The notes beneath the pieces were generated by a model. That model was not told the DNA's origin, made no database searches, and saw only the letters and a list, made by a program, of their open reading frames with translations. A program made the position numbers and the translations under genes. This document shows, one piece after another, positions 6,473 to 18,485 of a stretch of 43,924 nt of DNA; position 1 is the stretch's first letter, and each line of letters opens with the position of its first letter. Where the stretch lies: NCBI GenBank assembly GCA_003151335.1, contig PLXE01000066.1:1-43924 (forward strand). Direction: 5' to 3'. This DNA comes from Acidobacteriaceae bacterium (GTDB lineage Bacteria; Acidobacteriota; Terriglobia; Terriglobales; Acidobacteriaceae).

Positions 6473-6560
6473 CAGTTGCCAGTAGCCGGTTGTCAGTTGT
6501 CAGTGGTACAGCAACCCGCGATTACTAAAAGCTAGTTGCTAGCTGCTAATTGCTAAGGGG
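6473..6560 (+). repeat. Two heptad repeat blocks of different class, rplN-rplX gap
   Basis: The first block (6473-6508) has CAGTTGC, CAGTAGC and CAGTTGT units. The second (6531-6560) has GCTAGTT, GCTAGCT, GCTAATT and GCTAAGG units. Both keep a 7-bp period. The second one runs into the rplX ribosome-binding region. Confidence 0.7.
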
Positions 6561-16495: not shown

Positions 16496-16620
16496 TACGC
16501 CCGTGACGCGGAGCGATCGGCGTCGCGTTCTCTACAATCTTCGAGCCAGATCAGCCGGTGTGCGCTTGCATGAGACGCCAACCGCGCAGCATGGCCGAAC
16601 TGAACAGACAGGAGTTAGGA

Positions 16621-17667
16621 ATGCTTTGGAAAGGATTTCAGAAGCCTAAACGGCTGGCTACCGACACCGAGACCTTGACCGACCAGTACGGTCACTTCTG
16701 GGCGCAGCCGTTTGAGCGCGGTTTCGGTACCACCATCGGCAACGCGTTGCGCCGCGTGTTGCTGTCGTCCATCGAGGGCGCCGCGGTCACCGCGGTCAAA
16801 ATTGAAGGTGTGCTGCACGAGTTCCAGTCGATCCCAGGGGTGGTGGAGGATGCGACCGACATCATTCTCAACCTCAAAGAGATTCCCTTCCGCCTCAACG
16901 GGGACGCACCTAAGGCTATTTACTTGCGCGCCGATCAGCCGGGCGTAATCACTTCCGGCATGATCGACGCTGACGCTGACGTCGAGGTGCTCGACAAGGA
17001 CGTTTACATCGCCACCGTCAGCGAAGGTGGCAAGATCGACATGGAAATGCGGCTGAAGCGGGGCCGGGGTTACGTTTCGGCAGACAAGAATTTCGACGAG
17101 GACCTGGGGTTGGGATTCATTCCCATCGACTCCGTGCACTCGCCGGTGCGCAAATGTAACTACTCGGTCGAAGCTGCTCGTTTGGGACAGATCACGGATT
17201 ACGACAAGCTGGCCATTGAAATTTGGACGAACGGTTCGGTGACTCCGGCGGATTCGCTGGGATTGGCCGCTAAGTTGCTGAAGGACCATATGAACATCTT
17301 CATCAACTTTGAGGAAGAACTCGAGGCGCAGGCTGCCGGCCTGGGCGACAAGCCGGAGATTCGCAACGAGAACCTCAATCGCTCGGTGGAAGAGCTTGAG
17401 CTTTCCGTGCGCAGCTATAACTGCCTGAAGAATGCCAACATTCAGACCATCGGCGAGCTGGTGCAGAAGTCGGAAGCCGAGATGCTGAAGACGAAGAATT
17501 TCGGCCGCAAGTCGCTGAACGAGATCAAAGAAATTCTGGCTTCGATGGGCCTGGGGCTGGGCATGAAGATCGACGACCAGGGAAACGCCGTTCCCGGCAA
17601 TCCGTCGGGAGCGTCGCAAGGCTATTCGCTGCCGTCGTCGGGCTACGGCAACGATCCGAATTTCTAA
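16621..17667 (+). CDS. rpoA: DNA-directed RNA polymerase subunit alpha
   Basis: The alpha subunit dimer nucleates RNA polymerase, and its C-terminal domain binds UP elements and activators. The 348-residue product has the N-terminal dimerisation domain ([17 protein letters not shown] near residues 39-55) and a helix-hairpin alpha-CTD (R-S-Y-N-C-L-K-N-A and [12 protein letters not shown]). ATG 16621 is preferred because AGGAG lies six bases upstream; longer in-frame starts at 16558 and 16591 are not needed. A Ser/Gly-rich tail of about 25 residues follows the CTD. Confidence 0.97.
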
Positions 17668-17670
17668 CTA

Positions 17671-17948
17671 CAGTTGCCAGTAGCCGGTTGTCAGTTGTCA
17701 GTTTCTAACTGCGCAATTACGACGGGCTGCTGATAACTGGCAACTGAATAGAACTGGTTGCACGTCAGATTTGTATCAGGGCACGACTTAGAGTCGTGCC
17801 GCACCGGTAACCTAAGGACATCGGCTTTAGCCGCTGCTGACAGGGGTTAAAGCCCGGCGGAGAAGCGTAGGTTTCGGCACGGCTGAAGCTATGCCCTGAT
17901 ACAAACCGCAGCTTATGCCGTTTATGAAGCCGGTTCTACTGGCAACTG
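17671..17948 (+). repeat. Nested palindromic element filling the rpoA-rplQ gap
   Basis: The 314-bp gap holds no gene. Outer arms are heptad blocks: CAGTTGCCAGTAG (17671-17683) pairs exactly with CTACTGGCAACTG (17936-17948). Inside lies a 136-bp element, 17770-17905, bounded by the perfect 14-bp inverted ends TTTGTATCAGGGCA and TGCCCTGATACAAA. It contains the hairpin GCACGACT-TAG-AGTCGTGC (17781-17799) and GGCTTTA/TAAAGCC pairing. No transposase is encoded, so it resembles a REP- or MITE-like element. Confidence 0.8.
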
Positions 17949-17981
17949 ACTACTGACTACTGATTTCGAAGGATCACAGAA

Positions 17982-18485
17982 ATGCGTCATCGTAGAGCAG
18001 GATGGAAGTTAGGACGGAACACTGAGCATCGGCGCGCGTTACTGCGCAACCTGGTGACCTCGCTAATCGTGGACGAGCGTATTGAGACCACTGTCACGAA
18101 GGCCAAGGCCATGCGTCCTCATGTGGAGAAGATGATCACTCTGGGCAAACGCGGCGATGTGGCCGCGCGCCGGCAGGCGGCGTCGTATCTGATGACGCGG
18201 GATGCGGTGGACAAGCTGTTTAACACCATCTCACCTCGTTACGGGGATCGCGAAGGCGGTTACCTGCGCATCATACATGGCGGTTTCCGCCAGGGAGATG
18301 GCGGCGACATAGCCTTTGTCGAACTGCTCGGCAGCGAGAAGACCCTGGACGAGAAGCGCCAGAAACGCGCCGAACTCCGCGCCAAGCGTGCCGAAGAAAC
18401 CCGCAAGGCCATGGAATCGGCCGAGGCCGAAAACAAGCAGATGGAAGCGCAGCAAGCCGCGAACGAAGACAAGAAAGAAGAGTAG
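17982..18485 (+). CDS. rplQ: Large ribosomal subunit protein L17 with charged C-terminal tail
   Basis: L17 (bL17) lies at the tunnel-exit side of the 50S subunit. The core (M-R-H-R-R-A-G-W-K-L-G-R, then R-R-A-L-L-R-N-L-V-T-S-L) covers about residues 1-122. The family is usually 115-130 long; the 167 residues here include a highly charged helical tail rich in Glu, Ala, Lys and Arg. It is the last gene of the ribosomal cluster and is followed by a strong terminator. Confidence 0.96.
   Translation: MRHRRAGWKLGRNTEHRRALLRNLVTSLIVDERIETTVTKAKAMRPHVEKMITLGKRGDVAARRQAASYLMTRDAVDKLFNTISPRYGDREGGYLRIIHGGFRQGDGGDIAFVELLGSEKTLDEKRQKRAELRAKRAEETRKAMESAEAENKQMEAQQAANEDKKEE

Follow-up and report, generated by a model that had tools for sequence, protein, structure and literature searches.

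The origin and spread of RAYTs (Y1/HUH single-strand transposases) and of REP-like repeats are an open question. Several described systems lie close to the locus reported here, in the sections of the papers drawn on below. In TIRtrons, a Y1 RAYT-like gene lies between long inverted repeats of a non-GTAG type, and these TIRYT repeats also occur dispersed, often in dimers or clusters; the sharpest TIRYT group is acidobacterial, with T. saanensis, K. versatilis, A. capsulatum and G. mallensis (PMC3733652). In REPINs, two inverted hairpin units make up one mobile, RAYT-linked insert, and RAYTs themselves have been reported as single-copy genes apparently incapable of self-mobilization (PMC3116915). 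IS200/IS605 elements combine a Y1/HUH transposase with hairpins at the element ends (PMC2817692, PMC6006769). Finally, tandem 7-nt TAACTGA repeats occur between genes in Beggiatoaceae, Cyanobacteria and Bacteroidetes, some of them in putative ribosomal-protein operons (PMC4679880).

The element that we describe here, from the rpoA-rplQ spacer of an Acidobacteriaceae genome, is in kind a REPIN- or TIRtron-derived MITE without the canonical REP GTAG foot. As in TIRtrons, the full-length units carry a Y1 gene between long non-GTAG inverted repeats, which likewise occur dispersed, both singly and in dimers. However, its ends read GGGGCTRA rather than the GGGGWSAS motif of some TIRs, and the internal-deletion derivatives and empty sites seen here are absent from the TIRtron account in the consulted part of PMC3733652. 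It differs from REPINs, as the cited part of PMC3116915 presents them, in that TATCAG rather than a GTAG or GTGG foot (GT[AG]G) precedes the stem, that each end is a terminal hairpin plus an inner repeat, and that the RAYT lies inside the unit, twice over in genomes G001 and G051; moreover, no cognate RAYT was found in the same genome, and eight related genomes carry it instead. Compared with IS200/IS605, it has perfect 14-nt terminal inverted repeats, and with the IS200 model the RAYT protein reaches no more than 36.8 bits (cut-off 55), which is less than its RAYT score. In being an internally deleted, non-autonomous derivative of a coding element (alignment A2 and the intermediate at locus L181, below), it agrees with MITEs in general.

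Layout of the rpoA-rplQ spacer

The window, that is, the whole stretch of DNA analysed, is a complete contig (C116; 43,924 nt) from a genome of 4.65 Mb in 121 contigs, and the near relatives compared with it are acidobacterial metagenome-assembled genomes. On the plus strand, rpoA (16558-17667, the longest ORF; the real start is probably 3' of the first GTG) has its stop at 17667 and rplQ (17982-18485, plus strand) begins at 17982, leaving a spacer of 314 bp. RpoA is 97-100% and RplQ 98-100% identical in L093-L096.

Two palindromic layers are nested in this spacer. The outer layer is an older heptad hairpin, the left arm of which (17671-17705, plus strand) begins 4 nt past the rpoA stop and consists of five tandem heptads, CAGTTGC, CAGTAGC, CGGTTGT, CAGTTGT and CAGTTTC; L093 has the same arm without the inner element. 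The right arm (minus strand) is split into an inner portion left of the insertion (17733-17746) and an outer portion right of it (17936-17962). The inserted segment occupies approximately 17748-17937, as judged from alignment with five empty sites and from outward conservation in other copies; its outer flanks, TAGAACTGG ... CCGGTTCTA, pair imperfectly, and its exact borders are uncertain within the heptad tract. A direct repeat, ACTGGCAACTGA (family D1), flanks the insertion at 17736 and 17938. As this repeat is made of heptad sequence and stands twice even in the empty L096, it does not show a clean target-site duplication at rpoA-rplQ, nor can precise borders of the insertion be read from it.

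The core of the element (17770-17905), which we interpret as a transposase-less derivative of a RAYT unit, is bounded by a left terminal repeat, TTTGTATCAGGGCA (17770-17783, plus strand), and a right terminal repeat, TGCCCTGATACAAA (17892-17905, minus strand). Between and partly overlapping them lie the left terminal hairpin GGCACGAC-TTAGA-GTCGTGCC (17780-17800, plus strand), whose stem covaries across copies, the left inner repeat CGGCTTTAGCCGCT (17822-17835, plus strand), the right inner repeat CAGGGGTTAAAGCCC (17841-17855, minus strand) and the right terminal hairpin GGCACGGC-TGAA-GCTATGCC (17876-17895, minus strand), which is damaged in the window copy.

A sequence-only reading of this stretch had described perfect 14-bp inverted ends inside a second set of 13-bp inverted heptad arms. 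Both sets are present and 100% complementary, the inner arms (17770-17783 and 17892-17905) separated by 108 nt and the outer arms (17671-17683 and 17936-17948) by 252 nt. The internal hairpins that it mentioned were likewise found, at 17780-17800, at about 17822-17855 (a central stem) and, in damaged form, at 17876-17895. Its element size of 136 bp proved too small: the gap exceeds that of seven congeners by 207-222 bp, and 136 bp underestimates the unit because conservation continues outward beyond the 14-mer, 28 of 29 ends having a G at position -2, beyond which comes a weaker CATAAATC-like stretch. As for its statement that the element separates rpoA and rplQ, the gap is indeed longer, but the two genes remain neighbours.

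Empty sites and dispersed copies

The rpoA-rplQ gap was found in seven congeners and measures 92-107 bp in all of them, compared with 314 bp in the window; none has the inner element. Five (105, 105, 102, 107 and 92 bp in L093-L097) align with the window and carry the same heptad hairpin, whereas L099 (104 bp) has a different heptad word as an inverted pair and L098 (97 bp) has other hairpins. The closest relative, L093 (palsa_354), matches at 100% identity in both RplQ and RpoA, and at 85-95% over those pieces of DNA that align. The survey used oriented loci (L093-L126) that cover seven of the eight congeners; loci under genome handles with a reverse-strand gene were skipped, four loci had no RpoA, one yielded no gap, and the eighth congener, G006, gave no RplQ match and so falls outside the comparison. 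Because five congeners retain the same heptad hairpin without the element, we conclude that the element was inserted into an older heptad palindrome. The sequence-only reading had left it open whether the element landed in a heptad tract or recruited one, and had named empty sites as a check; these exist, with the heptad hairpin retained, and since heptads are already there in the empty relatives, 'landed in' fits and 'recruited' does not.

Four relatives likewise lack a second copy, at C95:97773-97910. The 250 bp of the window's genome correspond to 45 bp in G003, while G002, G007 and G008 are without a larger segment that includes the copy; the flanks are too diverged for the insertion borders to be read. 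A more distant relative (L106, QIAR01000149.1; RplQ 77%) carries a half-element of the same family in its own rpoA-rplQ gap, in other surroundings, apparently an independent insertion.

The 14-mer TTTGTATCAGGGCA occurs 19 times exactly in the 4.65-Mb genome and 40 times with at most one mismatch (reversed-pattern control 0), at least two of the 40 sites (L052, L062) being an unrelated IS-like end. Seven facing pairs of ends span 128-164 bp, within the spacing of 100-200 bp that had been proposed for dispersed copies, and one further pair points in the same direction. With about 40 sites, the element is far from single copy. Searching the genome with the whole gap returned three near full-length copies at 75-78% identity and many partial ones and, separately, many heptad tracts. 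The copies are built alike, each with a terminal hairpin and an inner repeat followed by the mirror images of both in reverse order, and several of those in the window's genome are one-sided or have one degenerate end.

The abundance of the ends varies widely. At up to two mismatches, TTTGTATCAGGGCACG has 44 sites in the window's genome and 91, 19, 12, 122, 23, 104, 40 and 21 in congeners G001-G008; elsewhere there are at most 42 in the family, 100 in one genome of another family and 0-8 in most others (reversed control 0-3). Ends are more numerous where a cognate RAYT is present (p 7.6e-5; 7 vs 54 genomes, 61 in total, uncorrected for kinship), but within the genus the two are not clearly linked (91, 104 and 40 ends with the RAYT; 44, 19, 12, 122, 23 and 21 without), and G052 bears a RAYT yet only 7 ends.

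A further repeat, starting AGGCTGCTGAAAAA, lies inside the terminal hairpin of several copies, at the identical base (1504) in L034, L035 and L044; it also occurs in L056, by its contig end, and in L014 and L047, near the site. L034 alone showed a far end to match, TTTTTCAGCAG.CT, at a distance of 138 bp. By its appearance, this repeat would be an IS or MITE with the terminal hairpin as its target.

Full-length RAYT units in related genomes

Ten intact RAYT units flanked by inverted copies of these ends were found in eight genomes, three of them congeners (two units each in G001 and G051; one each in G006, G007, G012, G052, G134 and G095). They are about 600-690 bp long; among six that were measured, those of the genus have 598-599 bp and the remaining three 607, 684 and 692 bp. 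Some unit ends have 1-2 mismatches in 13. The second unit of G001 is on another contig, and the similarity, 72% over 552 bp, is confined to the element, with ends TTTGTGTCAGGGCACG; the two units of G051 are about 2.3 kb apart. Most of the ten came from RAYT searches. Only those of G134 and G095 were picked by end spacing alone: a class-wide search for the end pattern at up to one mismatch matched 54 of 299 genomes, and among the matches listed were two facing pairs about 600 bp apart, between which a RAYT was expected and, in both, was present.

Y1_Tnp is present in 51 of 61 genomes, and a scan of 32 RAYT loci for the ends found L181 and no flanking pair at the others (five had single matches with 1-2 mismatches). 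At L181, an apparent RAYT C-terminal part lies between the two halves of one element copy, as a half-deleted intermediate. This 48-residue tail piece matched no Pfam family on its own, and we call it a RAYT because it is 54-61% identical to the tails of RAYT-type ORFs in other genomes. When it was used as a query, the 30 returned loci included three intact RAYTs with the same ends on both sides. A full-length RAYT query over 30 loci (one per genome) placed both ends at the best six and none at 23; two of the ends among these six (in L230 and L232) have 2 mismatches of 13, and a partial RAYT at a contig edge (L252) adjoins ends.

The protein is recognizably a RAYT. That of L219 scores 109 bits against NCBIfam REP_Tyr_transpos (cut-off 80) and 48 bits against Pfam Y1_Tnp (cut-off 23), and it aligns, as a distant match (E 9e-5), with E. 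coli TnpArep (PDB 4er8) over the HUH stretch (DHVH to EHMH) and Y..NPV. In a tree of 60 RAYTs (proteins under 90 residues excluded, L252 excepted), a single change suffices to explain which proteins have these ends (7 rows). The same holds for 93% of 200 bootstrap trees, and 0 of 500 shuffles came out as low; the support of the end-bearing clade is 92/41, from a bootstrap that had not settled.

In six units, the first ATG of the RAYT lies directly 3' of the equivalent of the left inner repeat, while residues at the RAYT C-terminus (..QGLKP, ..AAGAKA or ..AAGAEA) are encoded by CAGGGGCTRAAGCCC, the inner repeat on the right. The RAYT ORF of three of these units continues through the terminal hairpin to a TGA within CCCTGATAC. 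Alignment A2 shows that the window copy and three other copies from its genome share the ends of these units and lack the whole ORF, which identifies the window copy as an internal-deletion derivative.

Three neighbouring observations concern REP-like arrays and other RAYTs. In G039, which belongs to another family of the class and has about 100 ends, a partial RAYT (L252/L223) sits beside three tandem ends and groups with the copies of the genus; its copies might conceivably have arrived by horizontal transfer. In G051, six successive ends at about 40-bp spacing, the first of them a RAYT-unit end, resemble a tandem REP array (L270, 3684-3889). In G049, L181 also holds a tandem pair of RAYT genes of another lineage (1431-2785), which agree at 97% over 300 nt and have their own palindromes.

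In the window's own genome, the search for Y1 proteins found two Y1_Tnp genes and no others. Both are flanked by different palindromes and fall outside the end-bearing group of the tree. The tail query returned 0 matches in this genome at E<=1, and the full RAYT protein just two, at 31-34% identity, both placed elsewhere in the tree. An associated RAYT, as suggested by the sequence-only reading, was found between the same ends in eight related genomes, but the two of the window's genome carry other repeats. The RAYT that served the window's lineage would now be missing or unassembled. One of the two resident genes, on contig C96 (L032, 1156-1779 and flanks), is both flanked and interrupted in frame by its own palindromes (GGTGCCCCAGGTTCGCGTCC..); in-frame interruption by a palindrome has been described for one RAYT subclass (PMC6006769).

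Folding of the element and its stems

As RNA, the 136-nt core folds at -68.4 kcal/mol (z -6.7; 0 of 200 shuffles as good), and as ssDNA at -37.2 (z -6.2). The terminal hairpin is formed by 48 of 56 distinct ends, in a set restricted to ends followed by GCA and with at least 80 nt of context. Among these 48 hairpins, a stem pair is GC in 26, AT in 13, TA in 4 and CG in 3 (unpaired in 2). Perfect stems occur in 40 of the 56 ends, against a mean of 15.8 and a maximum of 23 in shuffles (n=200), although kinship among the sequences inflates such counts.

In the rpoA-rplQ gap, no promoter-like or terminator-like (intrinsic) site was found. Since the element adds a stronger stem-loop to the spacer mRNA without a terminator-like U-run, its effect is likely to be mild, giving a longer and stabler spacer and no new regulator.

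The outer heptad hairpin

The outer layer is a separate and abundant repeat class, less well explained and more novel than the inner element. At up to two mismatches, CAGTTGCCAGTTGTCAGT has 171 sites in the window's genome (control 0). The heptad pattern occurs in 38 of 61 genomes, several with just one or two sites; the control is 0-3, except for 9 in G026 (116 sites). The window alone holds 20 tandem heptad arrays, compared with a mean of 0.3 and a maximum of 2 in 20 simulations. Judged by crude ORF calls, 8 of 12 array clusters lie outside ORFs, and the other 4 overlap possibly spurious minus-strand ORFs; five clusters start 1-6 nt past a stop codon and three end 2-20 nt 5' of a start.

Neighbouring arrays (at most 150 bp apart) in the fetched loci are facing in 17 cases, tandem in 3+3 and diverging in 0 (n=23), with the qualification that the 17 are not independent, since about seven are the same gap in different genomes. 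The TAACTGA heptads are similar 7-nt tandem repeats but are direct, with one inverted set of 170, whereas the 17 of 23 facing pairs seen here form hairpins; the string 'acidobacteri' does not occur in the searched text of PMC4679880. We found no published account of heptad hairpins in Acidobacteria in the literature searched, most subscription papers being outside it.

The heptad word varies. Read by eye, it is CAGTTGY in most of the genus, of the CGGCTNT type in one congener, and CACTCAG, GTTTCGA, AGCTAGT or still others elsewhere, and the rpoA-rplQ gap of other genomes often has period-7 inverted arms built of other words. Among 33 rpoA-rplQ gaps that measure 50 bp or more (two rows mis-parsed), a lag of 7 gives the best period in 17, and it does so in 11 of 28 and 16 of 41 neighbouring gaps; as the neighbouring gaps show it too, this is a trait of spacers in these genomes and not of rpoA-rplQ alone. 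We do not claim co-evolution between the arms of heptad hairpins, since the signal is weak: arm-to-arm identity in the best register is 0.845, against 0.810 when partners are shuffled (sd 0.016, maximum 0.863; n=17 hairpins). It is tempting, if doubtful, to see an order-wide class of acidobacterial heptad hairpins, made of facing 7-nt arrays after stops and before starts, notably in the ribosomal operon, in which the word varies while position and stem persist, and which might function between cistrons, as spacers or processing stems, and also offer RAYT elements a single-stranded landing pad.

Two further features of the heptads were observed. Although heptads vary, 32 nt are identical at 6473-6504 and 17671-17702 of the window, which by sequence suggests copying or gene conversion between spacers. 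A second heptad word, of the TAGCAAY type, flanks several copies of the element in the window's genome (L033, L035, L037).

Discussion

Our analysis indicates, with a probability that we put at about 0.88, that the inner element is a non-autonomous miniature transposon derived by internal deletion from a RAYT unit. The sequence-only reading had proposed a REP/MITE-type mobile element, and the dispersed ends, the same ends flanking RAYTs in relatives and the empty sites all speak for it.

A conserved structured RNA, such as an attenuator or leader in the rpoA-rplQ spacer, would account for the strong fold of the core, and spacers at this position are often hairpin-bearing across the order (z <= -2 in 28 of 33 gaps of at least 50 bp, two rows of which were mis-parsed: L093 as 460 bp, where 105 is correct, and L098 as 341 bp, where 97 is correct). 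However, two other operon spacers also fold well (z <= -2 in 16 of 28 and 17 of 41), so that we dropped the idea of a hairpin special to the rpoA-rplQ gap; Rfam gave no match to this gap at gathering thresholds, the gap is not conserved among relatives, and copies lie at many unrelated places. For the inner element, the empty sites in seven congeners refute such an RNA, which we consider extremely improbable. A scarcely more probable reading is that of a MITE of a DDE-transposase insertion sequence that only resembles REP elements. Perfect terminal inverted repeats and direct repeats (D1) beside the insertion would suit it, but the flanking direct repeat belongs to the heptads, the terminal hairpin covaries, and a RAYT is present in all ten coding units read between these ends, even if only two were picked by end spacing.

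Equally small is the chance that the element is ancestral and was lost from the relatives. The half-element in the same gap of L106 could be taken in this sense, but its surroundings differ, the element is absent from seven congeners while other gaps hold diverse other spacers, the second locus shows the same absence, and several deep-branching relatives with a full element at the same position, which such an ancestry would lead one to look for, were not seen. That one of the two RAYTs of its own genome moves the element is unlikely, though not to the same degree: no other Y1 proteins were found there, and the C96 RAYT ORF has one end, with one mismatch, at a distance of about 300 bp; against this, both genes carry different flanking palindromes and both fall outside the group with these ends.

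Taking the inner element as a deletion derivative of a RAYT unit, we can present a rough proposal for its movement, based on sequence comparison. A RAYT would bind the terminal hairpin in single-stranded DNA, either on the lagging strand or extruded, would cut near the TATCA tag, join both ends and reinsert the unit. Copies without a transposase would be mobilized in trans. The window copy would have inserted in this way between rpoA and rplQ, in the 3' arm of a heptad hairpin that was already there, and the nested order is accordingly that of the alignments: heptad hairpin first, mobile element second.

Within this one family the full series can be followed, from full-length RAYT units, which one genome carries at two unrelated places, through an intermediate that is half deleted to transposase-less miniatures, together with sites that are still empty. 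The end of the RAYT gene within its own repeat arm ties the protein to the repeat, and it suggests how the central stem of the miniature may have come about.
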